From Flavobacteriales bacterium (lineage in GTDB: Bacteria > Bacteroidota > Bacteroidia > Flavobacteriales > Schleiferiaceae), in the NCBI GenBank assembly GCA_012269745.1, contig JAAXJR010000013.1:1-38566 (forward strand): 38,566 nucleotides of DNA, given 5' to 3'. Below the pieces are notes generated by a model that was not told where the DNA came from, did no database searches, and worked only from the letters and a program-made list of their open reading frames with translations. The position numbers and the translations under genes were made by a program. Shown one piece after another: positions 3,301 to 29,272 of the stretch (position 1 is its first letter; every line of letters starts with the position of its first letter).

Positions 3301-4495
3301 TGGAGCTATTACGACGGTAGACGCTTCTTGTGGTTCGGGGATGGATGGAGAGATTTCAGCAAGCGCAATGGGCGGAGCAGCCCCATATACCTACACCATT
3401 GGAGCAGCTTCAAACAGCAATGGGAATTTCAGTGGATTGAGCAGCGGAGCCTACTTAATCACCGTGTTCGATTCAACGGGTGTTTGTTCAGTGGATTCTG
3501 TGGTTGACGTCTTTGGCTCGGCACAAGGATGGAACAACATTACAGGTGCCATTACTGATCCAGTGCAATGCCACGGAACGAGCACAGGTAATATTGTAGT
3601 TCAAACCATCAATGGGGCAGCGGCTAGCAGTGCGTTCTATTGGATGGATGATGCAACTGCGCCACTTAGTCGTTTTGGAGTAGATGCGGGGAGCTATGTT
3701 TTGGTTATAGACAATGGCGAAGGGTGTTCAGATACCATGAGCTTTACCGTGGATGATGTGGCACCAATTTCGGTCCAAACCATCCTCAAGGAAGAGCAAT
3801 GTTTCGGCGACGGCATGGGAGAAATTTCTTTGCAGGTCAGCGGTGGAATGGCACCGTATTACTTTAATTGGCCAGGGGTAAATACCAGTGGGAAGAGCAT
3901 GTTGAACGGCGTTTCAGCAGGTATCTACTACCCAACCATTATGGACGATAACGGCTGCCTCTGGGCAGATACTATAGAGCTAGGCGGTCCAGAAGAAATT
4001 ACCGTGGACCTCAGCCACACCGATCCATATTCTTGTGGCTCCGAAGACGGCGTTATTGATATGATGATTGAAGGGGGCTCTTACCCGTATTACATCACCT
4101 TGAATGGTACACAGATTCCGAACTACTATGATAACGCTTCGGCTGGTGTGCAGGAGATTGTTATACAAGATGCGGTAGGATGTGAATGGGAGACCACAAT
4201 TGAATTGGTCCCGTCGCATAACCTCGTGGTTTACATTCCTAATGCCTTTACGCCAACTGGGGATGGCACGAATGAGAATTTCGACGTGAAAGGCGACCCT
4301 GCCTGCTTTACGGACACAGAATTTATCATCACCGACCGTTGGGGTAATGTATACTTCCGCACGGAGAAACCGTTTGAAGAATTCTGGGACGGCAGCCTTC
4401 CGGATCTTCCTGAAGCACAAAATTTGGCCCAATTCCAATTCCGCTTCACCTCCAACGAATATGTACAGACGGGAAGTTTAACTATGCTTAAGTAG
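377..4495 (+). CDS. Giant SprB-repeat surface adhesin with T9SS type B sorting domain
   Basis: A 1372-residue secreted protein, probably exposed on the cell surface. Residues 1-23 are a signal peptide ending in AKA. Residues 24-280 start with SHIVGGEITY and match the N-terminal domain common in large Bacteroidota surface proteins. From about residue 285 to 1280 come tandem modules of about 75-80 residues, each with a PTCFGDTNG-like start and a GSYQLTV-like strand; these are SprB/PKD-like repeats. Residues 1284-1372 begin VVYIPNAFTPTGDGTNENF and contain ITDRWGNVYF, the gliding-motility-associated (CHU_C, type B) domain that directs export by T9SS. Family knowledge suggests attachment or gliding; the specific role is inferred. 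Two modules (residues about 590-665 and 894-969) are encoded by almost identical DNA. The gene is followed after 32 bases by another T9SS cargo gene, so the two are probably transcribed together. Confidence 0.93.
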   Translation: MRRLLNASFALFFVFAFSFSAKASHIVGGEITYTKAATGGYVVSLTMYRDCSSPWNSNFPSVVTMRAYDAATGVKLTNNFTLTSDSVIPVPNNVNANCVTGLPSFCVEKRIYTATWNYTGSAINGIDFEYWLCCRNATISNLNNPNSTGMRYRTTVFPGGVGIVNSTPVFAVDPPTIVAAGKPTTVDFAATDADGDSLYYEFTNALNRWGNSVSYATGYSGTNPLPSTPAASIGSNDGIISANITQQGQFVISVYITEYRNGIPLSRIQRDYQFNTATFSLMDIVLDTTYRPIQCDFTTGVVGVNVDFGQAPYNYSWNTGDTTPVILNAGSGTYTVTVEDAIGCIDSLSIILAEPSELNPGVLGSDPSCFGVNDGAISANIDSLIGPYTYSLNGVQGSGYWNTLDTGLYNVLITDTNGYCIYDTAFQLNSTSNWNPVVIDSIYNPTCWDQQNGGIQLAGSNASLRLTWENGSNALARSNLGAGNYSLFVLDTTSGCYDSLHASITAPDSIILELLDTDNLTCDASNDGGFTIYVQGGTGGKSISINGTAASPYATNGDTLTFASLGSGSFQVDAVDALGCSKSLSLNIGIDSSWNNIALAALQNPTCFGDTNGLITFSGDTTGLSFAWNDGVTTLNRTALGAGSYQLTVANAVGCVDTLGAQLTQNPAMSFASVITSDASCDHVQDASITIALNQAYAGYQTYLNGALQNSDSITPLNPGQYLVSVTDSNGACGIDTSLSLGFNSAWNDFAITNLDSISCFGANNGQITLSGTSTGLSFLWNDGSTDTSRSNLQAGSYQVYLTNAGGCADTLSAALSEPQEIQLAFSTSNATCSSAANGSINFAATGGSGVLSALLDSSALQGNLITGLGSNSYLLSVSDANGCSVDTNIAVGVDSSWNNIALAALQNPTCFGDTNGLITFSGDTTGLSFAWNDGVTTLNRTALGAGSYQLTVANAVGCVDTLGAQLTQSAPLMIGAITTVDASCGSGMDGEISASAMGGAAPYTYTIGAASNSNGNFSGLSSGAYLITVFDSTGVCSVDSVVDVFGSAQGWNNITGAITDPVQCHGTSTGNIVVQTINGAAASSAFYWMDDATAPLSRFGVDAGSYVLVIDNGEGCSDTMSFTVDDVAPISVQTILKEEQCFGDGMGEISLQVSGGMAPYYFNWPGVNTSGKSMLNGVSAGIYYPTIMDDNGCLWADTIELGGPEEITVDLSHTDPYSCGSEDGVIDMMIEGGSYPYYITLNGTQIPNYYDNASAGVQEIVIQDAVGCEWETTIELVPSHNLVVYIPNAFTPTGDGTNENFDVKGDPACFTDTEFIITDRWGNVYFRTEKPFEEFWDGSLPDLPEAQNLAQFQFRFTSNEYVQTGSLTMLK
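2145..2372 (+). repeat. Direct repeat copy 1 inside the adhesin gene
   Basis: A 228-base segment repeated in the same frame 912 bases downstream (3057-3284). By eye the copies differ only at 2176/3088 (A versus G), a silent change in an alanine codon. Neighbouring modules have diverged strongly in DNA. Confidence 0.95.
3057..3284 (+). repeat. Direct repeat copy 2 inside the adhesin gene
   Basis: Second copy of the 228-base repeat, 912 bases (304 codons) after the first and in frame. Identity begins at TAGACTCC and stops after CGCAAA, so the unit covers one adhesin module exactly. Recombination between the copies would remove 304 residues without shifting the frame. Confidence 0.95.
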
Positions 4496-7862: not shown

Positions 7863-8645
7863 TTACTTCAAACCACTTAATGGAATGAAAGGAGCCTTCA
7901 CCCAAGAGACAAATTTGTCTGCAAGGCCGTAGAAGAAGCTGTATACCGCAAGAGAAACGTACAGTTGGATCAACATAATGATTACTCCAACAAACGCCAT
8001 ACCTGCACCTACTAGCCCTTCGATGGTCCATCCTGCACCTGCGTAGGTATCAGACATGATTTCCATGCCGTATAGACCTGTGAATAGTTCTGCGATAGCA
8101 TCTAGGCCTACCATTCCAGCAAAGGTTCCCAATACTGTCATCGGTAGATCAGCAGCACCAGCTGCTAGATTTAAACTGTGTGAATAAGTAAATACGTCCG
8201 CATTTACCAGATAAGAAACCACACCTACAACTGCAGTAAAGAATGCGCTCATTGCCGCGAAGTAACCTACTGCTTTGATGTTAGTGATCACTAGATCCTT
8301 AAATACGAACCCTACCGTATTACTTGTAGAAGACGATAGCTCGTCCCCGGCGTTACGGATGATCTTCGCAAGCGGGAAAGCAGCGTAGATGTAAATAAGT
8401 GTCGCAATTGCGCTACCTACTTTAGACAATGCGCTTCCTTCACCAGATAGTGCATCAATACCGCCTGTTACTACACCATAAAGCATAGAAATCAATACTG
8501 CAAAGGCAACCACCTTGTACACAAATCCGAGCCAAGCTTTCGCTGAGTCTTCAGAGCTGCTAATTACTTCGTTCCAATTGTTTCTTGGAAGCATCCCGTT
8601 CACCTTCTCAGGAAAATCGAGGACTTGATTTACATAGTTAATCAT
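7863..8645 (-). CDS. Multi-pass inner-membrane protein of unknown function
   Basis: A 260-residue protein that I do not assign to a family. The first 38 residues are soluble and acidic. Hydrophobic segments lie at about 39-62, 75-97, 121-147, 165-185 and 208-240, giving four or five membrane spans. The spans are rich in Gly, Ala and Val, and the tail SWVKAPFIPLSGLK is short and basic. There is no signal peptide, cofactor motif or conserved charged pair pointing to a transporter class. It is monocistronic: a strong terminator follows it, and upstream lies a 409-base gap, the longest in the window. That isolation suggests independent regulation. Codon use resembles its neighbours, so it is likely a real gene. 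Confidence 0.8.
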   Translation of the reverse strand: MINYVNQVLDFPEKVNGMLPRNNWNEVISSSEDSAKAWLGFVYKVVAFAVLISMLYGVVTGGIDALSGEGSALSKVGSAIATLIYIYAAFPLAKIIRNAGDELSSSTSNTVGFVFKDLVITNIKAVGYFAAMSAFFTAVVGVVSYLVNADVFTYSHSLNLAAGAADLPMTVLGTFAGMVGLDAIAELFTGLYGMEIMSDTYAGAGWTIEGLVGAGMAFVGVIIMLIQLYVSLAVYSFFYGLADKFVSWVKAPFIPLSGLK

Positions 8646-9054
8646 AGTTTTTGAGTGTTTTTGATTTTGTTATCGCAGGAAAAGTTAGAAAAATTCATCG
8701 CCCATTTTTGAACCAAAACCTAAATCAAGTGTTTCCTCTGACTGTGATTTTCGACTCGACGCAACTTATTAAGTGTCGTAAATGCCCTTTAATACTGGGA
8801 TAGATGTTTCCTATATCTCTTCGGCTATCTTGTTAGTTTCATGTGAAGAATTTTAGTAAATAGTGTTTTAAACTCACTGATTTATAAGGGCTTTAGATAG
8901 CCTTGGCAGCATCTGCAGGCTATCTAGCAGTAAAACCAACAACACGAATTCATTAGATTTTATTCCATAAAGTGTACCAACAGACCTTTTATATATTCAA
9001 GGTGACCGGCCATTCATTAATGCTTTCAGCGGATCTTCGTACCTTGAGTATCTG
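8646..9054. other. Structured intergenic region between divergent genes
   Basis: 409 bases between the divergent genes at 8645 (minus) and 9055 (plus). It contains the three-segment pairing region at 8782-8926. It also has TCAAGGT (8997-9003) and ACCTTGA (9041-9047), which could pair over a 37-base loop just before the ATG at 9055. No convincing -33/-7 pair was found on either strand, although both promoters should be here. No tRNA-like or known riboswitch pattern was recognised. Confidence 0.6.
8782..8926 (+). promoter_or_regulatory. Possible leader region with mutually exclusive hairpins
   Basis: The word GGCTATCT occurs at 8823-8830 and again at 8918-8925. Its reverse complement AGATAGCC lies between them at 8895-8902. 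Segment 2 can therefore pair with segment 1 (8 base pairs) or segment 3 (9 base pairs, TAGATAGCC 8894-8902 with GGCTATCTA 8918-8926). The second hairpin gains an inner GCAG/CTGC stem (8906-8909, 8913-8916). Segment 1 falls inside a 24-codon open frame, ATG 8782 to TAG 8856. This resembles attenuator geometry, but no T-run follows segment 3. Alternatively the words are protein-binding half-sites. Function is inference. Confidence 0.35.
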
Positions 9055-9945
9055 ATGATACAATTCAACTCGCGCTTGCTTCTAGCTGCTTTACTTATTG
9101 TAACAGAAATGAGCGGTCAAAAACTAATAGTCTTAGGTACGCTTCAAGATGCGGGCTCGCCTCAGTTGCTGTGTGAAAAAGAATGTTGCGCCCATCCAAA
9201 ACCAAACGACTACGTGTCCTGCCTTGGCGTGATAGATTCAACACGTGCGCTTCTCTTTGACGCTACACCTGATATCGTTCCTCAGCTCTCTGAGCTCTTA
9301 AATAGGTCTGGTACAGATCGCTTTTCCATTTTCTTAACCCATGCGCATGTTGGGCATTACACCGGGCTCATGCATCTCGGCAGGGAAGCTGCTAACACCC
9401 GTAAGGTGCGTGTATATGCCATGCCTAGAATGCTTGAGTTCCTGGCTAAAAACGGACCTTGGAACCAGCTTTTAAAGCTTCAAAACATTGTGCTCAACGG
9501 CTTAGAAAACGGCGTGCCTCGAACATTAGACAACGGGGTAAAAGTTGAGCCTATTTTAGTCCCGCACCGCGATGAATTTTCAGAAACCGTAGGGTATTAC
9601 ATCGAAGGTCCAAACAAAACAGCCCTGTACATTCCTGATATCGACAAGTGGACCGAATGGGAGGAGAATATTCTCGGCCTTGTGCCCACAGTGGATTACG
9701 CTTTCATAGACGGCACCTTTTTCGCAGATGGCGAGATTCCGAGACCGATGTCAGAGGTGCCCCACCCGTTCGTCTCTGAAAGTATTGCGCTATTAAAGCA
9801 CTTGCCCGAAGCCGAAAGGAAGAAAGTCTACTTTATTCACCTTAACCACAGCAACCCTGCAAGAGAGGCCAATTTTGAAGGTCGAAAGGCAGCAGAGGCG
9901 CTCGGGTTTCACTTTGCTGAATTTGGCTTAGAGGTTGATTTATAG
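9055..9945 (+). CDS. Exported PqqB-like metallo-beta-lactamase-fold protein
   Basis: A 296-residue protein with an N-terminal signal peptide (about 1-21). It has the PqqB-like opening LIVLGTLQDAGSPQLLC, with further cysteines at 44, 45 and 56 that could form an extra metal site. It also has the metal motif LTHAHVGHYTGL (94-105). In the latter the usual HxHxDH reads HAHVGH, so the aspartate is glycine; related exported proteins share this as far as I recall. Further conserved residues are the aspartate of YIPDIDKW, the FIDGTFF strand and the histidines of VYFIHLNHSNP. No other PQQ gene is nearby, so a role in PQQ synthesis is not supported; a hydrolase acting in the periplasm is more likely. 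A barrel gene follows after 26 bases, with its own promoter-like sequence. Confidence 0.85.
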   Translation: MIQFNSRLLLAALLIVTEMSGQKLIVLGTLQDAGSPQLLCEKECCAHPKPNDYVSCLGVIDSTRALLFDATPDIVPQLSELLNRSGTDRFSIFLTHAHVGHYTGLMHLGREAANTRKVRVYAMPRMLEFLAKNGPWNQLLKLQNIVLNGLENGVPRTLDNGVKVEPILVPHRDEFSETVGYYIEGPNKTALYIPDIDKWTEWEENILGLVPTVDYAFIDGTFFADGEIPRPMSEVPHPFVSESIALLKHLPEAERKKVYFIHLNHSNPAREANFEGRKAAEALGFHFAEFGLEVDL

Positions 9946-16446: not shown

Positions 16447-17103
16447 CTAAAGCCTGTAGCCTAGGGTTAACGTATGATAGTGCGGTGACGACAACGAGAA
16501 GTTGTGCTGGTAGAAGTAACCGAAGCTAACTTTTCCGCCTAATGCCTTATTGTCTGTTTCTGCACCTATCCTTAACCGTCTGCTAAGGTTTCCACTTACA
16601 GATCCCAAGAACTCAGAATAGAAAGTCGGGTCCCATTTCCAGTCTTTGATGTTTTTAGAATACGCTCCTCTGATACGTACATCTGTGCGGTCCGAGCCCC
16701 CTCCAGAAATTATGGCGCGTTGCTGGATGCCGTAGCGCATCGCAAATTCGTCCTTGCCTAGGTCGTAGGTTTTGGTCGCGTTTACTCTAAATCTGATGCG
16801 TTGATTAATGCCCTGTGAAGCTCCCACGTTATCGAAGATCGAATAGTGACGGAATTCTGTTGAGAAGCTCAATGATTTGCTTTGTGCTTTTGAGACCTGA
16901 AGTTCAGTGATCCAACGGTCCATACCTTCTTCGCCACCAACAGTTCTGTACAAGCCGCTAATGTCAATATCTAACCCTTTCGCCGGTTCAAGGCGGTATG
17001 TCAATTTCGTCCAAGTTCTATTCTCAGTTGTGGTCTGAGCGAACACTCCTGCAGAAAGCAGTGAGATTGAGAATATAAGTAGTACTCTAAACTTCATAAA
17101 CAA
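16447..17103 (-). CDS. DUF2490-like outer-membrane barrel protein
   Basis: The protein has 218 residues. A signal peptide covers residues 1-22 (ends GVFA, then Q). Start 17103 gives MFMKF; the ATG six bases downstream (17097) is equally possible. The mature part is a run of amphipathic strands (WTKLTYRLEPAKGLDI, FSTEFRHYSIFD, RIRFRVNATKTYDL, GKVSFGYFYQHNFSL) ending LTLGYRL, matching the DUF2490 family of predicted outer-membrane proteins. It overlaps the end of the DUF4956 gene, so both are read from one message. DUF2490 barrels have been seen beside CotH and DUF4956 genes, as here, but their role is unknown. Confidence 0.75.
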   Translation of the reverse strand: MFMKFRVLLIFSISLLSAGVFAQTTTENRTWTKLTYRLEPAKGLDIDISGLYRTVGGEEGMDRWITELQVSKAQSKSLSFSTEFRHYSIFDNVGASQGINQRIRFRVNATKTYDLGKDEFAMRYGIQQRAIISGGGSDRTDVRIRGAYSKNIKDWKWDPTFYSEFLGSVSGNLSRRLRIGAETDNKALGGKVSFGYFYQHNFSLSSPHYHTLTLGYRL

Positions 17104-17683
17104 CGGTAATTTGCGCTTTCCCTTCTGCGTGGTCTACTTTAGAAATATGGTAGCGAACAACTGTTACCGCCATATTCTCAGCAAACTCATTTACTCGGTC
17201 ATTGACCACAGCTTCGGAAAGTTTTTCGGAAGGTACTACCAAGCTCACCTTCTTCGTTGAGACTTTAGTCTCGCTCGGTTTTTCGAGCAAGAATCTCTCA
17301 AGAATATAAATACATGCAAGTACCGTAGCGTTAATCAGGACCAATTCAACAAGTGATATCGTTTCTGAACTAAGCGCATTGATCACCGCGATACCCAAAG
17401 ACGCGAAGAGATAGGTCATCTCTTGAGGGCGCAATGTTTCTGTGCGGTAACGGATAATCCCAAAGATGGCGAACATACCGATGGCCAACCCAATCTGCAT
17501 CTCGAAAGTGCTAAGTACGTAAGACAAAAAGAACACGACCACAGCAATAATGAAGAAGCTGCTCACGTTAGTACGCGTGGTTCTATTGTGGCGGCTAACA
17601 ATGGCTAATTGGACCAGATTGTAGACCACCATCAAGGCGAACTTCAAGAACATTGTGGATGAAATGTAAAATATTTCAGACAT
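17087..17683 (-). CDS. DUF4956-family membrane protein
   Basis: The protein has 198 residues. Four hydrophobic segments lie at about residues 10-28, 42-60, 62-80 and 88-127. The stretch MFAIFGIIRYRTETLRPQEMTYLF, around residues 70-93, contains the family-typical RYRT and PQEMTYLF words. A soluble C-terminal domain of about 70 residues follows (VSLVVPSEKL through VRYHISKVDHAEGKAQITVVYEV). DUF4956 proteins commonly occur with VTC-type polyphosphate polymerases and CotH kinases. Here CotH is the divergent neighbour, 41 bases away, and the DUF2490 gene overlaps the 3' end, but no VTC gene is in the window. It is a membrane component of unknown activity. Confidence 0.85.
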   Translation of the reverse strand: MSEIFYISSTMFLKFALMVVYNLVQLAIVSRHNRTTRTNVSSFFIIAVVVFFLSYVLSTFEMQIGLAIGMFAIFGIIRYRTETLRPQEMTYLFASLGIAVINALSSETISLVELVLINATVLACIYILERFLLEKPSETKVSTKKVSLVVPSEKLSEAVVNDRVNEFAENMAVTVVRYHISKVDHAEGKAQITVVYEV

Positions 17684-17724
17684 AGGTACAGAGTTGTAAA
17701 GCGAATATAGGTTTAATAATTACA

Positions 17725-19149
17725 ATGTATTTTGCCTGTATGCTTAAACACAAATCTCTGTATTGGATACTATTTCTAGCCCTTGGGTTTAACTCTTGCA
17801 CCAAAGATTACACTTCCGGTCAATTGCCCATGGTTTATCTCGACGTCGACGGACAGATTCGCCCTGATGATAAAATAGATGGTGAGTTCTCCATTGAGGT
17901 GGACAACCGCACCGTCGTTAGTGGCAATATGGGCGTCGAATACAGGGGCAGCACCTCGTACCGGCTAAGCGACAAGAAGTCCTACGGCTTCGAGATTAGG
18001 AAAGCCAATGGAAGCGGGACACCCAAGGCTTTGTTAGGCATGCCTGCAGAGAGCGACTGGATTCTTATGGGACACGTAATACGCTCGAATGGACCAGATG
18101 ATCTCTATGCGTTCGATCCTACACTTATGCACCATTATGTGGGTTATGAATTGGCACGTAGTATAGGGATGTATGCCGCGCGTTGTCGCTGGGTGGAACT
18201 CACTGTAAACGGACAGTATCAGGGTGTTTATGTACTCATGGAGAAGCTCAAGGCAGACCGAATGCGTATCGACGTGGGTGAGCCCTATGGACGCAAGGAG
18301 CCCGGAATCACTGGTGGATACATCCTAAAAATTGATAAGACGGCCTCCTATGCACCTTCGGGCAGGGAGCTCAGTTATTACGACAACAACTGGGGAGATG
18401 ATGCAAATTATACGCCGTACATCAGTTTTAGAAGTGAATATGATATCGAAGCAAGCACCTTGGATATCGAACCCTTCCGCCCACCGTACCACGACGATCA
18501 GTACAGGGAGACCTATTTCCTGCACGAATTTCCTAAGCCTAGTGATTTGAATGGGGAGATGAGATCCTACATCAGTGATTATGTGTATGATTTTGAATCG
18601 GCCATCATTCTAGACAACCTCAACGGGACGAACACGGTTAGTGAGTACGCGGACCTAGAAACCTTTGCGGACGGGTTCATCATGAATGAGCTCGCGGGTA
18701 ATATAGACGCGTATCGCATCAGTACTTTCCTGCACAAACCGCGCGGTGGTAAGCTTCGTTTTGGACCTATATGGGACCTCAACATTGGCTATGGTAGACA
18801 AGGTCGCGTGCCTTGGACAGACTGGATCGCCAACTACAATGATTACGTCAGTCAAGATGCATGGATGGTGCCTTTCTGGTGGGACATGTTCCTAGAAAGT
18901 CCAGAGTTCAAAAGCATTGTAAAATCGCGTTGGACGCAATACCGCAATGGGCCGCTTTCAGATGCTGCAATCTTCGGATTAGTGAATGAAACCGAAGGTC
19001 GACTGCTGAGCACAGGCGCTGCAGAGCGCAATTACGACTTGTGGCGCGCAGAGAATAGAACCATAAACTTTGAGGGTGAGGTAGATTTCTTGCGCAATTA
19101 CCTCGAGCAGCGATTGGCCTGGATGGACGACGAGATAGGTAGCTGGTAA
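17725..19149 (+). CDS. CotH-family protein kinase, lipoprotein
   Basis: The protein has 474 residues. A lipoprotein signal ends FNSC (Cys25 from ATG 17725, Cys20 from the alternative ATG 17740). CotH is an atypical kinase fold that phosphorylates spore-coat proteins in Bacillus; in Bacteroidota it is exported and its target is unknown. Recognisable elements are VEYRGSTSYRLSDKKSYGFE (strand with the Lys-Lys-Ser motif), GVYVLMEKLKADRMRI (family lysine/glutamate stretch), GGYILKIDK, and the metal-binding GPIWDLNIGYG at about residues 346-356. It is divergent from DUF4956/DUF2490, with only 41 bases for both promoters, so the two units may be co-regulated. Its stop codon abuts the convergent permease stop with no gap. 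Confidence 0.88.
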   Translation: MYFACMLKHKSLYWILFLALGFNSCTKDYTSGQLPMVYLDVDGQIRPDDKIDGEFSIEVDNRTVVSGNMGVEYRGSTSYRLSDKKSYGFEIRKANGSGTPKALLGMPAESDWILMGHVIRSNGPDDLYAFDPTLMHHYVGYELARSIGMYAARCRWVELTVNGQYQGVYVLMEKLKADRMRIDVGEPYGRKEPGITGGYILKIDKTASYAPSGRELSYYDNNWGDDANYTPYISFRSEYDIEASTLDIEPFRPPYHDDQYRETYFLHEFPKPSDLNGEMRSYISDYVYDFESAIILDNLNGTNTVSEYADLETFADGFIMNELAGNIDAYRISTFLHKPRGGKLRFGPIWDLNIGYGRQGRVPWTDWIANYNDYVSQDAWMVPFWWDMFLESPEFKSIVKSRWTQYRNGPLSDAAIFGLVNETEGRLLSTGAAERNYDLWRAENRTINFEGEVDFLRNYLEQRLAWMDDEIGSW

Positions 19150-21676: not shown

Positions 21677-22954
21677 ATGGAAAAAGGAGCAAAACTCATT
21701 GCAAATATTGCGGGTCTGTTGATTGTGGTGTTTTTCACCACCATCCTTGCTTTTGATGCAGGAAAATATCCTGCAAAAAACAGGTTTGGTGTGCTAAGCA
21801 AGGTTGTTTCCATTATTGGCGAAACGCCTTCGGCCGTGAAATCTATGCTCTTTGAACTGCCTGAATATTTAAAAGCCACACAAGATTTTGCCCCTCCAAT
21901 TAATTTACTCGAAGAGGACATTTACGCACTTCACACCTTTGGCCCAACCAATGAAGCTAAACTTGTAAATCTTAGGAACGACAAGGTCATCAAGAACTGG
22001 GATATAGGCGAACACAAACCCTATCCTAATGCGCGCTATTTCGCGCAACTATTGCCCGACAGCAGTCTCTTTGCTTATGTGCACGAAGGCGATTGGGCAG
22101 GCGTTATAAGCAGTTCTGGTGAAGTAATCTGGGAACGTAGCGGGGATCTCGTTTACCACCACAGCGCAGAGATTCAAAGTGAAAAAATTTGGATTTGTGC
22201 CCGAGACCATGGCTACCTGCACACCTACGGCAGTGCGACGCTAGATACCTTTTTCATCAACGAAAGCAAGGGAATTGGGGTTATGGACGAGGTAATTTTA
22301 GGAATTGATCTTGAAACAGGAGCGACCACAGATAGCATCTCAATGCTTGAAGTGTTTGAGAGAAATGAATTGAACCCCGTTTATAAGAGCTACTACGGTC
22401 CTGCACAAGGGGATTGCTTCCACCTCAACGATATCCAACCAGTAACTTTTACAGACACTCTCCATGGCTACGAAAAGGGGGATCTGCTTATCAGCAACCG
22501 TACTCAAAACGAATTGCTGCATTTGAGACCATCAACGCTTGAAATCCTACACACATTTAATGAAGGGTTGAGCTCTCAACACGACGTAGATATTTTAGGT
22601 GATAGCGCTATTATCTGCTTCAACAACCATAGTCCTAGTCTTTTTCAGCTCCAATTCAACGTTGAAAATGACCAGCACGAGGGTATCTACAGCGAAGTGG
22701 CGGCCTTTGAATTAAATGGAGACAGAAAAACTGAATTGGCCATTTCTAATAAAATGACCCAAGAGAAGATATACACCTCAACCGAAGGGCTGCAAGAATT
22801 TCTCGGAAATGGATATGTGGCAATTGAAGAACAAAACGAATTCACTGTGTACATTTTTAAGGACGATGCACTCGTTTACAAGAACGCTTTGAATTACTTT
22901 GGCAAAACGGAATTCGTTGAGATTCCTAATTGGACAAGATTTTACAGACCATAG
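21677..22954 (+). CDS. Membrane-anchored arylsulfotransferase-like protein
   Basis: The protein has 425 residues. A hydrophobic anchor at about 8-26 (IANIAGLLIVVFFTTILAF) puts the rest outside the cytoplasm. The body reads as a beta-propeller of the arylsulfotransferase (ASST) group. Supporting words are the YVHEGDWAGVISSSGEVIW blade, HH161-162, the DCFHLNDIQPV stretch (246-256), GDLLISNRTQNELL and QHDVDILGDSAIICFNN (301-317). In studied ASSTs, propeller histidines carry and pass a sulfate group between phenols; whether these residues do so here is not shown. The gene is the first of a tight operon (gaps of 2 and 8 bases) with a small membrane protein, a sulfotransferase and a receiver. That context favours sulfate-ester chemistry. 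Confidence 0.8.
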   Translation: MEKGAKLIANIAGLLIVVFFTTILAFDAGKYPAKNRFGVLSKVVSIIGETPSAVKSMLFELPEYLKATQDFAPPINLLEEDIYALHTFGPTNEAKLVNLRNDKVIKNWDIGEHKPYPNARYFAQLLPDSSLFAYVHEGDWAGVISSSGEVIWERSGDLVYHHSAEIQSEKIWICARDHGYLHTYGSATLDTFFINESKGIGVMDEVILGIDLETGATTDSISMLEVFERNELNPVYKSYYGPAQGDCFHLNDIQPVTFTDTLHGYEKGDLLISNRTQNELLHLRPSTLEILHTFNEGLSSQHDVDILGDSAIICFNNHSPSLFQLQFNVENDQHEGIYSEVAAFELNGDRKTELAISNKMTQEKIYTSTEGLQEFLGNGYVAIEEQNEFTVYIFKDDALVYKNALNYFGKTEFVEIPNWTRFYRP

Positions 22955-22956
22955 TT

Positions 22957-23097
22957 ATGACGACACCATTCATGTACATCGGCCCTGGATTGGGCGTAGG
23001 CGCGGGCATCCTTATTGTGCTCGTTTTATTGCTCATCTTAGGATCTTTCGGCTACCTCATCTGGTACCGTATCAAGCGTGCTACACGTAAGAAGTAA
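22957..23097 (+). CDS. Small single-span membrane protein (46 residues)
   Basis: 46 codons, ATG 22957 to TAA 23095-23097. The product starts MTTPFMYIGPGLG. It has one span of mostly Gly, Ile, Leu and Val (about residues 12-37) and ends in a basic tail RIKRATRKK that should face the cytoplasm. It sits two bases after the ASST-like gene and eight before the sulfotransferase start. The YIGPG start resembles short membrane proteins I recall beside sulfo- or phospho-transferase genes. It may be a subunit or chaperone of the neighbouring enzymes. Confidence 0.75.
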   Translation: MTTPFMYIGPGLGVGAGILIVLVLLLILGSFGYLIWYRIKRATRKK

Positions 23098-23105
23098 GCA
23101 ATCTT

Positions 23106-24473
23106 TTGGGTCCAGTTCTTCCATACCTCCTTCCCTTGCTTTCAGGCACCTTGCTTGCTTTGGGGGCACTGTGGATGAAAAACCCATTCTTCAAGCTTGC
23201 TGAACGAAGCGTTGGCCTGCTCAACATACTCGTTGCGGATATAGACGAAGACGAGAAATTTGAGTTAGTCAACACCAAGGTGATGCAAACCATAGGCTCA
23301 CTTTTAGCGGTCCTTCTCATGGCAGCACTAGTCGTTGCAGGTGCTATTGCTCTATACACAGGGCTCTTTGAATACATTCCCTTTGAGGCATCAGGCTACG
23401 GCATGCTCCTTCTCGCTGCGGGCTCTGTGGTACCATTTGTAATTCCAACGAAGAAAAAAAGCGCCTACAGTGCCATGGCCCAGCTATTCCATCATTTGGT
23501 ATTGGACAACTACCACTTGGGTAAAAAACTGCTGAACTATCAAATTAAAGGAGTCGCGGCGGAAAGTCAGAGCAATAGAAAATACAGCCGTGTACTCATT
23601 ACAGGATTGGCTCGAGCAGGAACCACTGCCTTGACTAAAGAGCTTGCAAAACGCGGCCCATTCGCCTCTCTTGATTACAGCAATATGCCGGTGCTTTTAG
23701 CCCCTAAGCTTTGGGCTAAATTTTACAAACCAAAGCGCACAGAGAATAAGGAACGTGCCCATGGCGATGGAGTAAAAGTAGGCCTTGCAAGTGTTGAAGC
23801 TTTAGAAGAGTACTTCTTTAAAGTAATCAAAGACGACAGCTACATTAAGGAAGATGGGCTATATCAACACGAGCTGTCGGAGGAAGAAAACGAGCTGTAT
23901 AGACGGTATCAAAACAGCATTGCAGATGGCGACATCTATCTCGCAAAAAACAACAACGCCGTTCTTCGACTTGAATCGTTAACAACACACAACCCAGATT
24001 TAGCAGTATTCCTTCTAGTACGTGATCCATTGCAACATGCTTACAGCTTGATGCAGCAGCATAAAAAGTTTAGCGCTCAGCAAAAGGAAGATCCTTTCAT
24101 CAAAGACTATATGGACTGGTTAGGCCACCATGAATTTGGCCAAGGACAGCGACCTTTCGTTCTAAACGGTGTGGGCACCCAAGATGGAGATCCAAATGAT
24201 ATTAATTACTGGCTAGAGCGTTGGATGAACTACTATAGTCACGTTGCTATTGGAGAAAATACCTTTGCTTTAACCTATGAGGATTTTTTGGCTGAGCCGA
24301 AACTAACGTTGACCTTTATCAGCTCAACCTTAGGCATTTCCCTTAATTTAGCAAGCACTAAGAACTTTGATAAAGACCCCGTTTCTGTTGGCCGTGTTAA
24401 TGAAGCATTGCTATCTGACGCGAATGCGCTTTACCAGAAACTGAAATCTAGATGTCAAAATCTGTCCTCATAG
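23106..24473 (+). CDS. Membrane-anchored PAPS-type sulfotransferase
   Basis: The protein is 455 residues from a TTG start at 23106, eight bases after the previous stop. The first in-frame ATG (23175) would remove the first span, so TTG is preferred, with some doubt. Hydrophobic segments lie at about 4-24, 62-84 and 97-113. A soluble sulfotransferase domain follows: the P-loop-like GLARAGTTAL (167-176) corresponds to the PAPS 5'-phosphosulfate loop. VRDPLQHAYSL (305-315, with R306 and S314) corresponds to the 3'-phosphate site. FALTYEDFLAEP is the family's late strand-helix. Fused N-terminal spans are unusual for this fold and tether the enzyme to the inner membrane. The acceptor is unknown, perhaps a lipid or nascent glycan. 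The response-regulator gene begins within its last 22 bases. Confidence 0.83.
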   Translation: MGPVLPYLLPLLSGTLLALGALWMKNPFFKLAERSVGLLNILVADIDEDEKFELVNTKVMQTIGSLLAVLLMAALVVAGAIALYTGLFEYIPFEASGYGMLLLAAGSVVPFVIPTKKKSAYSAMAQLFHHLVLDNYHLGKKLLNYQIKGVAAESQSNRKYSRVLITGLARAGTTALTKELAKRGPFASLDYSNMPVLLAPKLWAKFYKPKRTENKERAHGDGVKVGLASVEALEEYFFKVIKDDSYIKEDGLYQHELSEEENELYRRYQNSIADGDIYLAKNNNAVLRLESLTTHNPDLAVFLLVRDPLQHAYSLMQQHKKFSAQQKEDPFIKDYMDWLGHHEFGQGQRPFVLNGVGTQDGDPNDINYWLERWMNYYSHVAIGENTFALTYEDFLAEPKLTLTFISSTLGISLNLASTKNFDKDPVSVGRVNEALLSDANALYQKLKSRCQNLSS

Positions 24474-24799
24474 TCGAAGACGACACATTACTAGGGGAAA
24501 CACTTCACACCATGCTTTCTCTTTTAGAGCATAATCCAAAAGTTTGTACTACTCTAGCCGATGCCAAAACTGCAATTACTGAGCAAAATTGGGATGTTAT
24601 TTTGAGTGACTATTCTTTAGGTGTAGGTACGGGAGTTGATGTTATGAATCATGCCATTGCAGCAAAATCTACCGCTACGCTAATCATATCTAGCGGATAC
24701 GAAAGAGCGCAATTTGAAGAGCAATTAAAAGGGCTAGATCAAGTCCTTTGGTTGAACAAGCCCTACAAAATTGACGAATTGGTCAAACTACTAGGTTAA
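24452..24799 (+). CDS. Single-domain response regulator (CheY-like)
   Basis: A 115-residue receiver domain with no output domain. The acidic triad E9-D10-D11 (LIVEDD), phospho-acceptor D53 (ILSDYSLG), conserved S79-S80 (LIISSGY) and lysine K103 (LNKPY) are all present, so phosphorylation is likely. The gene overlaps the sulfotransferase gene by 22 bases and belongs to that operon. Because it has no DNA-binding domain, it must act through a partner protein. A soluble histidine kinase without a receiver (28319) and a Crp/Fnr regulator (24848) are nearby, but partnership is inference. Confidence 0.9.
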   Translation: MSKSVLIVEDDTLLGETLHTMLSLLEHNPKVCTTLADAKTAITEQNWDVILSDYSLGVGTGVDVMNHAIAAKSTATLIISSGYERAQFEEQLKGLDQVLWLNKPYKIDELVKLLG

Positions 24800-24847: not shown

Positions 24848-25486
24848 ATGTCATTAGCTTACCTAAATCACGAAGGATTCGATATTCTTTCCCCAGAACT
24901 TAAAGACCACCTCACGAATATTGGCGAGGTTGTAGAGTATGAAAAAGGAGATCTGATCTTAGATTACGGTCTTCATGCGGATTTTATGCCTATCATCCTT
25001 GAGGGGAGTGCCCGTGTCATGCGCATTGCAGATGACGATCCTTCTAAAGAGCTGTTACTTTACTTTTTGACCCCTGGAGAAATCTGTCCTTGTGCTGCCT
25101 TCTCTCAACTCCCAAACGGCAATATGCCTATTACGGTTGAGGCAGAATCGCCTTCAAAAATCCTACATATCCCATTAGAGGGATTGACACCAATGACTGA
25201 GGCTTTTAGCGAATGGCGCATTTACGAGTTAGGGAATTTCCGTCGAAGATTTGAGGAGCTCTTGAGCTTGGTCGACAACGCCATTTTCAATCAACTTGAA
25301 GCCAGGTTGCTTGCTTATATCGAAAAGCGCTGCCTTCTTAACAATCGAAGAGGTGTTTCCTTGTCCAAAGTCAAAATGGCCTCCGAACTAGGTACTTCTC
25401 GAGAAGTCGTCAGCCGACTCCTCAAGAACCTAGAAAATAAAGGTGTGCTTACCCAAGATAAAGAAGGCGTCCACCTCCTTGGCTAG
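24848..25486 (+). CDS. Crp/Fnr-family transcription regulator
   Basis: The protein has 212 residues. An N-terminal cyclic-nucleotide-binding-like jelly roll spans about residues 15-130: VVEYEKGDLILDYG, IILEGSARVMRI, LLYFLTPGEICPCAAFSQL. A long dimer helix follows (about 118-150), then a winged helix. The HTH is RRGVSLSKVKMASELGTSRE, around 168-187, and VVSRLLKNLENKGVL. Three cysteine-rich positions (ICPCAAF) are not the Fnr iron-sulfur pattern. The effector is unknown. It follows the sulfotransferase operon by 48 bases and ends one base before the convergent amylase gene. It may regulate neighbours, but no binding site could be assigned. Confidence 0.9.
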   Translation: MSLAYLNHEGFDILSPELKDHLTNIGEVVEYEKGDLILDYGLHADFMPIILEGSARVMRIADDDPSKELLLYFLTPGEICPCAAFSQLPNGNMPITVEAESPSKILHIPLEGLTPMTEAFSEWRIYELGNFRRRFEELLSLVDNAIFNQLEARLLAYIEKRCLLNNRRGVSLSKVKMASELGTSREVVSRLLKNLENKGVLTQDKEGVHLLG

Positions 25487-25487
25487 A

Positions 25488-28244
25488 TTACTCTAACAGC
25501 AATCGCTCATTGTAAACAGCTGATCCAGCCTGGATTTTCAGCATGTACGCTCCTGATGGAAGATGGTTCAAATCCATATACTCCACACTGTAGAGCGTAG
25601 CATTGAAATTGCCTTCATGAACCGATTTACCAGTGATATCATAAACTTGGTAACGAACATTCGTTCCTTCAGCTACATCTACCAATAGCTCTACATTTCC
25701 GCTACTTGGGTTTGGATACACAGCAACATTAGTAGCTGCTAGCTCCATTTCCTCCTCACCAATAAACGAAGCCTTGTTCAGCTTAACGTCTGTATATACG
25801 TGCCACTCGCCTGGCTGGTAGGTCATCGGAGCCGTTGCATTTGTCACCACAATACTATCTCCGGTGAAGTAATCGTACCATGTCCCTGTATGTTGGAAGT
25901 TTGGATAGACATCACCCGCTGTCACTCTGAAGTTACCTACAACAGTAGCATTGGTATCCGTAGTCGAAAGATTGATGCGCTTCGCACCGCCGTTGAGCGC
26001 ATAAGTAAAGTTGTCCGTATTAAACACACTGTACTTCTTGCGCATTTCAATGAGTGCTGCCGTGTAGAAATACACTTTCTGACGGTGGTTGTTCTCATAA
26101 TAACTCCATAGAATAGGCTTCTCACAAATACGACAAGGGTTGTCTATGGAGATATCATAGGCCAATTCCTCAAACATGTACATCATCTTCGGTCCTGGAA
26201 TGGTGTACAAGAAAGCATGAGTCAAAATCTTACGATCGGCCATGGTCGCGAGAGTTCTTGTATCATAGCCGCCAGAAGAGTTTCCATAGGTCTTGATCTT
26301 ATACGAGGCCCTTTCCTCATCGTGGCTTTCGGTGTAAGAAATCAAGTGTTTGTCGTTCCAGCCGCGCTCTTTGTAGATGCCCCATTTGAAATCACTATTT
26401 GAGGTATAACCCATAGCTGCTTCATAATAAGCATGAGCTACATTGCCCCACAACATCATGCCGTAATCACTAAGCTCTTTTTCTTCGTTATTAGGACCCC
26501 AGTGCTCTAAAATCACATAGAAGTCCTGATCCACACCCCATAGCGTATCTGCTAAGCGCTTAAGTGCAGCGATACGTGGTGCAGAATAGTTATCAGCATT
26601 CGAATTGTTCGTGAAGCCTTTCGTAAAATCAAAGCGGATTCCGTCAATCTTAAACTCCTCTATCCAGTAGGTGTTGATACGATCCATGTAATCACGCGTC
26701 GGCTGCACATAGTGATCGAAGTCGTTGCCCCAACAGTTTGGTGGGTGTGGACAGTTTTGGTTCATGTACGGGTTATCAGCAGCAGGTCTATTATTTGCAC
26801 CATCCCACCAAATCTGAGCGATAGGGTTCTGGCCATAAGCATGATTGTACACCTGATCAGTAATAACCGCAATACCTCTAGAATGACAGCTGTCCACAAA
26901 CTCCTTGAACTTATCTGGCGTCCCGTAATACTTATCTACAGCCATGTGAAAGGACGGGTTATAGCCCCAAGAAGAGTTGCCTTCAAATTCAGAGTTTGGC
27001 ATCAATTCAATAGCGTTCACTCCCAATCTCGCGATGTAATCCAAGGTATCTATGACCGTTTGATAATTGCGTGTAGTTACGAAATCACGGATCAACAACT
27101 CATAGATGACCAATTCCTCTTGCGGTGGGGCCTGAAAATTCGTGTTCTTCCATTGATACGGTGTCTTCGCCGTTTGATACAACGAAACATTACCCGTGGT
27201 CTTCCCCGTTGGATAAGCCGGCAGGTTTGGATATGTTGCAGAAGAGATGTAGCCGTCGTTCCATGGATCGAGAATGAGCGTTGAGAACGGGTCTGCAACT
27301 CTTGTTTGGCCATCAATCAAATACTGATAGGTGAACGGCTGACCGGCCGGCACTGTAACTTCCTTAAACCACCATGCGCCTCCAGGAGTTCGCGTCATCG
27401 CGTTCTGCGGCTCCGGTAAAAAGTCATTCAACGAGGTCAAAACATACACGCGATTTTTACCTGGGGCATACAGCTTGAAGAATACTGTCGTATCATTGAG
27501 CTCATTGAGACCCATCTCCATGCCACCTGGTAATGTGGCCACCTGCAATGGCGGTTCAACTGCGTATTGGATAGTATCATAAACCGTAGATGAGCTATCA
27601 CTTGCCTCTAAAACTACCGTGTGCATTCCAGGAACGGTATCCCTCAAATAAAAAGTCTCTTGTTTGGTAGAGTCTTGAAAAACTAAGGTCCCGTTATCGT
27701 AAACCTTCATATCACAGAACCTTGAAGCAGCAATGACCGTCTCTAAAGAGTCCGTCGGCGAAATGAGCAAGGTGCTCTCGGGCTTCATAAACTGTGCAAT
27801 AAGACCTGCATTCGCAGGATAAATGTCGTAGTAGATATCTGAACCGTCGACAGCACGACCAACCACCGTTCCGTTTGCATTGCGGAATACAAAGGCTAGT
27901 TTTTGCACGGTAACATTACTACCAAATCCATAGTAAGAAGGAATGTGGTATTCCAACTTATGAAGGTTGTTTCCTAATGAAGTCATCAACACGTTAGGGT
28001 CCGCGGTTCCCCAGTTTCCCTGAACGTGCTTCCAATCCGTAGGACTTGTACTTTGATTGGTAATGAGCCCTGCATGGGCATACACAGGTGTATATCCCGT
28101 AAGTGCACCATTACCTTCAGTAGCGTCATATATGACCGTTATTGTATCGTTCTGAGAAGGGAATGCCGGGGTAATATTTAGAACCTGACCTTGAACGAAT
28201 GCAGAAAAAGCTATCGAGAGAGCTAATGCTAGATTTTTAATCAT
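25488..28244 (-). CDS. Secreted GH13 alpha-amylase-type enzyme with T9SS type A tail
   Basis: The protein is 918 residues from ATG 28244; an in-frame TTG at 28265 lies upstream of a good signal peptide (IKNLALALSIAFSAFVQG) and is rejected. An N-terminal beta region (about 20-230) is followed by a CBM48-like module (about 252-330, VFFKLYAPGKNRVYVLT to RVADPFSTLILDP). The GH13 barrel starts near 380. Catalytic motifs: region I ITDQVYNH (H468), region II GIRFD (nucleophile D539), region III VILEHWG (acid E580), region IV SHDEE (H641, D642). The C-terminal domain opens VYPNPSSGNVELLV and ends GSAVYNERLLLE, a T9SS sorting signal. It should degrade starch- or glycogen-like glucans outside the cell. 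No SusCD pair is present. It ends one base from the convergent Crp gene. Confidence 0.93.
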   Translation of the reverse strand: MIKNLALALSIAFSAFVQGQVLNITPAFPSQNDTITVIYDATEGNGALTGYTPVYAHAGLITNQSTSPTDWKHVQGNWGTADPNVLMTSLGNNLHKLEYHIPSYYGFGSNVTVQKLAFVFRNANGTVVGRAVDGSDIYYDIYPANAGLIAQFMKPESTLLISPTDSLETVIAASRFCDMKVYDNGTLVFQDSTKQETFYLRDTVPGMHTVVLEASDSSSTVYDTIQYAVEPPLQVATLPGGMEMGLNELNDTTVFFKLYAPGKNRVYVLTSLNDFLPEPQNAMTRTPGGAWWFKEVTVPAGQPFTYQYLIDGQTRVADPFSTLILDPWNDGYISSATYPNLPAYPTGKTTGNVSLYQTAKTPYQWKNTNFQAPPQEELVIYELLIRDFVTTRNYQTVIDTLDYIARLGVNAIELMPNSEFEGNSSWGYNPSFHMAVDKYYGTPDKFKEFVDSCHSRGIAVITDQVYNHAYGQNPIAQIWWDGANNRPAADNPYMNQNCPHPPNCWGNDFDHYVQPTRDYMDRINTYWIEEFKIDGIRFDFTKGFTNNSNADNYSAPRIAALKRLADTLWGVDQDFYVILEHWGPNNEEKELSDYGMMLWGNVAHAYYEAAMGYTSNSDFKWGIYKERGWNDKHLISYTESHDEERASYKIKTYGNSSGGYDTRTLATMADRKILTHAFLYTIPGPKMMYMFEELAYDISIDNPCRICEKPILWSYYENNHRQKVYFYTAALIEMRKKYSVFNTDNFTYALNGGAKRINLSTTDTNATVVGNFRVTAGDVYPNFQHTGTWYDYFTGDSIVVTNATAPMTYQPGEWHVYTDVKLNKASFIGEEEMELAATNVAVYPNPSSGNVELLVDVAEGTNVRYQVYDITGKSVHEGNFNATLYSVEYMDLNHLPSGAYMLKIQAGSAVYNERLLLE

Positions 28245-28266
28245 GTGAATTTTTGAAACTGTCAAA

Positions 28267-28298
28267 TTTGAGTAGGCTCTAAAGTTACGTTATCTTCG
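28267..28298 (+). promoter_or_regulatory. Probable promoter of the histidine kinase gene
   Basis: TTTG (28267-28270) and TATCTTCG (28291-28298) are 20 bases apart, close to the Bacteroidota consensus. A GTG at 28298 that would extend the kinase gene begins inside this -7 element, which supports ATG 28319 as the start. Confidence 0.6.
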
Positions 28299-28318
28299 TG
28301 GGAGACACACTTCACATT

Positions 28319-29272
28319 ATGACCCGACCTTTTCTTTATTTACCCAAAAATCAGGAAGCTCAATTGGGTGCCTTGAAAGAATGGCTCTCTAGTTATGAGA
28401 TCGATCATGCTTTGGATTGGGAAGATTTAGCTCAGCGTATACACGCCGTTTCAGAAAAAGGCAGTACCGACGAGTCGTTTAAAGTTGGGTCCTACCATTT
28501 CGTTATTGAAAATCAAGAGGAAGGAATCTTGGTATATCAAACAACAAAAGAGTGTATGGCACTGTTTAACAGCACTGCTGAGGAACTAAATGCATTCAAG
28601 GTTATGGCTAGCGCATTAAAGCACGATATCTCCAGTTCACTCAACAATATTTCATTACAGAGTGAATTAATAGGTATTAAAGGGGTGAATGATGCCAAGG
28701 GACTTCAGAAAGGGATACAGTCCATAAAAGCTAGTGTTTTTGCTGCAAATAACATGCTCGAGGACTTGAGCGATTTTGCCAAACTCGTTCGTAATGAGGA
28801 TGATGTTTGCGATATCAATGAAGTTCTTATTCATACCAAACGTCTTTTAGAGAAAGAAATCAAAGCGAGCGGCACCGTTATAGCACATGGCGCCTTTAAA
28901 ACCATTAGCTATTCACCTTCGCGTTTGATGATCATTCTCAAAAACTTATTGTCAAATTCTATTAAGTACAGCGGTAATGCCCGTCCACAGATTTTAATTC
29001 ACGATTCGGAAGACGAAAACTTCTACAAAATCACTCTCGTTGACAATGGCATTGGTATTCCAAAAAAAGATCTTGAAAAAATTGCCCTGCCGTTTTATCG
29101 AGCAGAAAACGTTGGTAAGGCGAAAGGAACAGGGGTAGGTTTGTCTACTGTGAAAAGTTTGATGGGCACTGTTGGAGGCAAAATGGTCATCCGTTCGTCC
29201 AAAGTTAATGTAGGTGAACAATCAGGTACTAAAGTGATACTTTATTTCCCCAAGGCGCTACTAATCGAATAG
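28319..29272 (+). CDS. Soluble sensor histidine kinase
   Basis: The protein is 317 residues from ATG 28319. No signal peptide or membrane span is visible, so it works in the cytoplasm. The N-terminal 95 residues are a sensory region of unknown fold. The dimerisation helix carries the phospho-accepting histidine in ALKHDISSSLNN (H102). The ATPase domain has the N box NLLSNSIKYS (N213), G1 DNGIGIP (242-248) and G2 GKAKGTGVGLSTVK (266-279). No receiver is fused. The nearest receiver lacking a kinase is the protein from 24452, so they may be partners. The gene has its own promoter and is divergent from the amylase gene. Confidence 0.88.
   Translation: MTRPFLYLPKNQEAQLGALKEWLSSYEIDHALDWEDLAQRIHAVSEKGSTDESFKVGSYHFVIENQEEGILVYQTTKECMALFNSTAEELNAFKVMASALKHDISSSLNNISLQSELIGIKGVNDAKGLQKGIQSIKASVFAANNMLEDLSDFAKLVRNEDDVCDINEVLIHTKRLLEKEIKASGTVIAHGAFKTISYSPSRLMIILKNLLSNSIKYSGNARPQILIHDSEDENFYKITLVDNGIGIPKKDLEKIALPFYRAENVGKAKGTGVGLSTVKSLMGTVGGKMVIRSSKVNVGEQSGTKVILYFPKALLIE

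Follow-up and report, generated by a model that had tools for sequence, protein, structure and literature searches.

Analysis of a contig from a Flavobacteriales bacterium of the Schleiferiaceae (JAAXJR010000013.1, assembly GCA_012269745.1) revealed a conserved module of three genes encoding a protein of the arylsulfate sulfotransferase type (ASST), a membrane mini-protein with the motif YIGPG, and a membrane sulfotransferase (ST) of the type that uses 3'-phosphoadenosine 5'-phosphosulfate (PAPS). The whole stretch analyzed, 38,566 nucleotides long, is here called the window, and the three genes together the trio. The window belongs to a genome bin of 2.27 Mb in 87 contigs (100% complete by tool estimate), and the contigs carrying the nearest ST relatives are labelled Cryomorphaceae, Schleiferiaceae, Flavobacteriales or Bacteroidetes. 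The trio is a genuine module, conserved and built from known enzyme families, and a literature search found no paper on the module, its membrane arrangement or the mini-protein among the open-licence papers listed, as judged by titles and abstract openings. The module and its immediate surroundings comprise the following features.

21677..22954, + strand: ASST-type (PAPS-independent arylsulfate sulfotransferase) protein, 425 amino acids, with N-terminal membrane anchor and predicted propeller fold (open reading frame, ORF; PF14269)
22957..23097, + strand: YIGPG mini-protein, 46 amino acids, single span and basic C terminus (ORF from ATG 22957; adjacency or fusion to partner; purifying selection)
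23106..24473, + strand: membrane PAPS-type ST, 455 amino acids, TTG start, three predicted spans followed by the catalytic domain (PF13469/PF00685)
23589..24347, + strand: sulfotransferase domain inside the ST, residues 162 to 414 (Pfam stretches)
24452..24799, + strand: single-domain response regulator (receiver), 115 amino acids, accessory and found in the window's own group only (PF00072)
24848..25486, + strand: Crp/Fnr-type regulator, a clade-specific neighbor outside the core (PF00027, PF13545)

The genes are tightly packed, with a gap of 2 bases between ASST and mini-protein, one of 8 bases between mini-protein and ST, and an overlap of 22 bases between ST and receiver. The original prediction had described a four-gene operon with just these genes and spacings, and the ORF reading agrees with it. 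However, while the first three genes form a conserved unit, the receiver is confined to close relatives of the window's locus, so that the conserved core consists of three genes and not four. For the mini-protein, the earliest start given by the ORF finder is TTG 22930 (55 amino acids); ATG 22957 was used because the relatives align from there.

Neighborhood conservation was assessed in the best 80 of 369 ST loci from a collection scan, in which distant copies are under-sampled. Nineteen of these loci share at least 52% identity with the window's ST and are referred to as its own group; the next locus follows at 43%. Some of the 80 loci depend on one another: a single bin supplied both L120 and L127, contigs that match opposite ends of the query; L141 and L142 likewise share a bin; and many loci come from genomes that also figure in the genome samples described below. 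All 78 assessable loci (the cut loci L127 and L128 were left out) have the mini-protein next to a partner or fused with one: it lies directly before the ST in 70, is fused to the ST in 5 and to the ASST in 3. In 58 of 76 assessable loci (L114, L117, L127 and L128 left out), a same-strand ASST gene lies directly upstream of the ST; in one it is arranged otherwise, and in 17, 14 of which belong to the own group, it is absent. Outside the own group, this adjacency is seen in 57 of 61 loci, the exceptions being L129, where the ASST is convergent, and L133, L175 and L188, where the upstream sequence covered amounts to 1.3 to 1.7 kb. The commonest other neighbor family occurs in 16 of the 80 loci, all of them own-group, and the remaining families in at most 15, mainly in single clades.

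Co-occurrence was also evident at the genome level. Among 246 genomes of the order, ST was found in 18 (one further weak match, G034, with E 8.3e-4 and two internal stops, was left out) and ASST in 18 by relative search; 17 carry both, one only ST and one only ASST (Fisher p 4.6e-24, uncorrected for relatedness). Nine of these 17, besides the window's genome, have the three genes grouped together. A sample of 395 genomes from the phylum gave ST matches in seven, one match being a fragment and one the window's own genome; of the five that were read fully, four contain the complete trio. The trio is thus widespread across Bacteroidota but patchy. The original prediction had proposed a search for conserved co-occurrence in Bacteroidota as its check; such co-occurrence was found for the three core genes, and the contrary outcome it had named, neighbors not conserved together, was not observed. 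Two further arrangements were seen in passing: in L216 (8762-9439, minus strand), ASST and mini-protein appear to have been deleted, with an ASST-like start joined to the membrane part of the ST, and in L173 (3831-8049) and L192 (3831-8055), the trio is flanked by a CoA-transferase gene on either side (PF01144 for the two in L173, by eye in L192).

The ASST matches PF14269 with an E value of 4e-20 (72.9 bits against a cut-off of 27). Its predicted structure (predicted local distance difference test [pLDDT] score 80.9) has its best structural match in Cpz4 (Z 27.6, root mean square deviation 3.2, 313 residues), followed by E. coli AssT (Z 26.0). The eight top-ranked entries are all ASSTs (Z 25.5 to 27.6 over 307 to 316 residues), and the next propeller fold follows at Z 21.4. 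Nine residues (H161, H162, H249, N251, R284, Q301, H302, N316 and N317) are invariant in 36 of 36 sequences including the window's, and the motifs around H249 and H302 align with Cpz4 at E 0.52, which is weak by itself; the presumed catalytic histidines and their surroundings are conserved. When the PDB was searched by sequence with the ASST profile, Cpz4 came up at E 0.56, later 0.52, among chance hits; the structural comparison was decisive. Family, fold and conserved histidines place the window's protein among the ASSTs, with aryl-sulfate transfer as its predicted activity. A second, separate ASST is encoded in the same genome (G000:C26:11072-12169; L062 4881-6185) with no mini-protein nearby, at a position that by eye is common to several members of the genus.

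The ST matches PF13469 (E 4.5e-9) and PF00685 (E 8.3e-5) in residues 162 to 414, preceded by three hydropathic spans at residues 4-22, 65-83 and 95-113. The original prediction had allowed that these spans might stem from a mistranslated start; such an artefact was looked for and ruled out, as the N-terminal region aligns across 17 rows (the starts of L045, L058 and L060 were set by hand), and the spans are regarded as real. The residues G167-L-A-R170, G172-T-T, R306 and S314 are invariant in 17 of 17 sequences, and the loop was aligned with that of Stf1; we presume that these motifs serve as 5'-phosphosulfate loop and 3'-phosphate motif. The fold was assigned through a model of the fused relative L115, which is 60% identical to the window's ST, rather than through the window's protein itself. 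This model (pLDDT 81.8, mostly above 90 in the sulfotransferase part) retrieved sulfotransferases in 50 of the 50 PDB entries listed. Fold and PAPS motifs identify the ST as a sulfotransferase of the PAPS-dependent kind, and PAPS use is predicted. Another sulfotransferase gene of the same genome (G000:C8; L211 4466-5386, minus strand; PF00685, E 1.6e-15) lies in what by eye is an apparent polysaccharide export cluster.

The mini-protein has no Pfam family at E 0.1; an NCBIfam match to CcoM (E 0.0021) was below the cut-off and was set aside. Residues Y7, I8, G9, P10 and G11 are invariant in 17 aligned mini-proteins, with the variants YVGPG in L133 and YGGPG in L213 to L215. The latter three are high-GC relatives (L214 at 8489-8872, minus strand) in which the membrane part of the ST is a separate small gene between mini-protein and ST. 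Compared with the nearest relative, L120, the rates of nonsynonymous and synonymous substitution are 0.0097 and 0.32, and nine of ten differences fall on third positions; by these sequence measures the mini-protein behaves as a real gene under purifying selection. It is joined in frame to the ST through extra spans in L115, L116, L118, L119 and L117 (the last cut by a contig edge), and forms the N terminus of the ASST in L173, L185 and L192. L115 and L116 are 94% identical, and each fusion type may go back to a single event. Because the mini-protein is fused to the ST in some loci and to the ASST in others, a link between the two enzymes is suggested. Furthermore, no Y-x-GPG motif was present in any frame of 13 loci with separate ASSTs (L062 to L074, of which L074 ends at the ASST), and therefore the mini-protein follows the ST. 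Packing of the mini-protein on the ST in the fused L115 model is of low to middling confidence, and no conclusion was drawn from it.

Hydropathy gives one span each for the mini-protein (residues 11-29) and the ASST (7-25), and the predicted topologies agree with one another: the mini-protein would have its N terminus outside and its C terminus inside, the ASST span would then lead out, and the ST domain would lie inside. Lysine and arginine counts before and after the three ST spans are 0/3, 2/0 and 0/3, and fusion of the ASST behind the mini-protein fits an outside location of the ASST. Some mini-protein forms resemble signal peptides and end in AYA just before YIGPG (L212) or YGGPG (L213, L215), which puts the motif at the outer side. 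The two-sided arrangement of the original prediction is borne out insofar as the ST domain is predicted inside, and it is compatible with an ASST outside.

PAPS supply genes adjoin the module in 3 of the 80 loci: CysQ, adenosine 5'-phosphosulfate (APS) kinase, CysD and CysN in L130; CysN, CysD and CysC, on the opposite strand, in L168; and CysQ in L129. L212, which comes from a different family of the phylum, has an APS kinase gene (PF01583, E 7.2e-67) directly behind its ST. APS kinase was also found in 11 of 11 searched ST-bearing genomes outside the window's genus. In L130, the APS kinase is fused behind a DUF2061 membrane domain (8641-9477).

Several characterized systems resemble parts of the module. 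E. coli CFT073 AssT, which comes with DsbL/DsbI, shares the ASST fold, and an outside location is proposed for the ASST here too; in contrast, the trio has no DsbL/DsbI-like gene, its partner is a PAPS-type sulfotransferase, and its ASST belongs to PF14269, whereas AssT belongs to PF05935. The ST shares the PAPS sulfotransferase fold with mycobacterial Stf1 and Stf9 (Z 15.1 to 16.3 for the L115 model) and with tyrosylprotein sulfotransferases (Z 13.9 to 14.4), but differs from both in its three N-terminal spans and its mini-protein, at 12 to 18% identity. The closest parallel is the two-step sulfation of caprazamycin and liposidomycin-type compounds, where Cpz8 is reported to sulfate a triketide pyrone with PAPS and the ASST Cpz4 to move the sulfate to a sugar hydroxyl (PMC6731281, PMC4257720, PMC13426309). 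Both systems combine a PAPS-dependent and a PAPS-independent sulfotransferase in one pathway or unit; in structure the ASST matches Cpz4 best, and the Foldseek hits of the ST include Cpz8 (rank 39, E 0.063). The trio differs in that its enzymes bear membrane spans and come with the mini-protein, that no carrier synthase was among the window neighbors scanned, and that the unit is spread over a phylum. Caprazamycin provides a chemical precedent for a relay from PAPS through an aryl sulfate to an acceptor. In the adipostatin cassette of Streptomyces, AdpST is accompanied by PAPS genes of its own and by a type III polyketide synthase (PKS), and makes sulfated alkylresorcinols; company of PAPS genes is a shared trait, but the five-gene operon described there has neither ASST nor mini-protein (PMC12135136). 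A 2026 review describes the natural acceptors of most bacterial ASSTs as unidentified and their cellular roles as poorly understood (PMC13426309). In this module an ASST is regularly paired with a gene whose product may supply its donor, and as carriers of the trio include cultured species (strains of Winogradskyella, Xanthomarina, Formosa and Hanstruepera), the role of an ASST becomes testable.

From the gene set, its conservation, the fusions, folds and motifs and some PAPS-gene neighbors, combined with the predicted topology, we propose that the trio may act as a membrane sulfuryl relay that leads from cytosolic PAPS to an acceptor outside by way of a phenolic carrier in the membrane, a reading to which we give about an even chance. 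Here we infer the carrier, its flipping, the acceptor and a physical complex. The ST, with three spans and a cytosolic catalytic domain, would move sulfate from PAPS to a phenolic, membrane-soluble carrier, and the resulting aryl sulfate would flip across the membrane. The mini-protein, with one span and YIGPG at the outer face, would hold ST and ASST together. The anchored ASST, its propeller outside, would take the sulfate onto a catalytic histidine, from which it would reach the final acceptor; a glycan or glycolipid is probable. A more specific form, which seems possible to us at somewhat under even chances, is a dedicated transmembrane complex in which PAPS charges a lipid-soluble phenol such as a quinol or alkylresorcinol inside, the mini-protein couples the enzymes, and the ASST discharges it onto surface glycans or lipids, so that activated sulfate would cross as undecaprenyl phosphate carries sugars. 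If true, the relay would open a general path by which activated sulfate could reach the outer side of bacterial membranes. The original prediction had likewise suggested a relay; what remains of it is that both sulfotransferase types and the mini-protein belong together, and that a precedent exists in caprazamycin, while its phospho-control is not supported.

Several observations weigh against the relay. The PAPS-gene neighbors amount to two or three cases rather than four, because L129 and L130 are sister copies. No APS kinase was found in the window's own bin, and within the genus it occurs in 6 of 25 genomes (one cut at a contig edge) versus ST in 21 of 25 (some partial; the weak matches in G604 and G610 uncounted). 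In five genus genomes that were read, CysC, CysD and CysN adjoin apparent nucleotide-sugar or polysaccharide genes (by eye, the CysC of one confirmed); as APS kinase lies in an apparent polysaccharide island, loss in binning is possible, and that of the own bin could have been lost with such an island. Apart from the window itself, its near twin L120 is the single locus among 15 assessable ones of the own group in which an ASST adjoins the ST, and separate ASST copies lie elsewhere in several of those genomes; G376, the fifth fully read genome of the phylum sample, has neither ASST nor mini-protein beside its ST. The window's ASST is 91% identical to that of L120 but very divergent otherwise: in a tree whose midpoint root serves for display only, the two share a branch of length 2.51 that falls outside the remaining ASSTs, both those of trios and those standing separately. 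The window's copy may have evolved fast, may have replaced an earlier gene, or may be an ancient copy that stayed where it was. Foldseek alone barely separates Cpz4 (first, 7.5e-10) from a designed propeller (3.8e-9), and the charges around the ASST span, two lysine or arginine residues before and three after, are ambiguous for topology. In the fused L115 model, the mini-protein part scores 33 to 77 pLDDT by blocks of ten, and any contact is putative. Finally, no type III PKS was among the ten window proteins scanned (the 80 loci were not searched for one); the phenolic carrier may be made elsewhere in the genome. A ketoacyl synthase III gene near 6 of the 80 loci is clade-limited, and for this reason it and the adjoining degradation-type genes at the g4/g9 copies were set aside as carrier makers.

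Other readings of the trio were considered. ST and ASST might act in the same pathway at separate steps: inside, the ST would sulfate a membrane lipid or glycan precursor at one site, and outside, the ASST would add or move another sulfate, drawing on aryl sulfates of other origin, with no handover. That both enzymes can live apart, as the own group keeps ST and mini-protein without an adjacent ASST and ASSTs stand alone elsewhere, speaks for this, as do sugar or glycan genes near some copies (named by eye); yet the adjacency outside the own group and the mini-protein fusions to either enzyme argue for tighter coupling, and we consider it unlikely. Alternatively, the sulfated phenol or quinol made by the ST could itself be the product, as a signal or in detoxification, with the ASST recycling or exchanging sulfate between phenols. 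Known ASSTs act broadly on phenols and one from Bacteroides vulgatus uses phenols too, and for most the natural acceptors are unidentified, as described above (PMC13426309). Such a role, however, needs neither membrane fixation of all three parts nor a mini-protein link, and Cpz4, the closest structure, prefers sugar hydroxyls according to the same text (PMC13426309), which makes it distinctly unlikely. It is decidedly improbable that the ASST-like propeller is a non-enzymatic scaffold or sensor for the ST product: beta-propellers are often scaffolds and the window's copy is very divergent, but the histidines are invariant even there, and the two motifs align with Cpz4, if weakly.

The four-gene system under phospho-control put forward in the original prediction was judged by its receiver. 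This protein (PF00072, E 1.5e-10; no span by hydropathy) carries the usual receiver residues including the phospho-acceptor, with roles that we presume, and besides overlapping the ST gene in the window it lies directly behind ST in L113, L114, L118, L127 and L128. However, of 17 own-group loci that could be judged (L120 and L140, whose ST is cut at the end, left out), 5 gave a match and 12 did not, and none of the 61 others did (L187 ends at the ST). No match to the histidine kinase at 28298-29272 was seen in the stretches covered, some of them short, of the other loci that have a receiver. A four-gene system is extremely improbable on these grounds; the distribution of the receiver rules it out as a core part, and phospho-control as part of the system is not supported. 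The Crp/Fnr-type gene was likewise matched in own-group loci only, and both genes are local additions.

Glycerate kinase, GntP, CotH, Crp and amylase neighbors were ruled out as parts of the system, being found in the own group only. Genes for DUF2490, DUF4956 and CotH-kinase proteins are grouped beside the module at 16447-19149 and are kept in part of the own group. The gene at 25488-28265 encodes a protein of the alpha-amylase type that carries a type IX secretion tail and is a neighbor in 16 of the 19 own-group loci. Near the start of the window (377-4495), a large SprB-repeat protein bears a type IX secretion domain.

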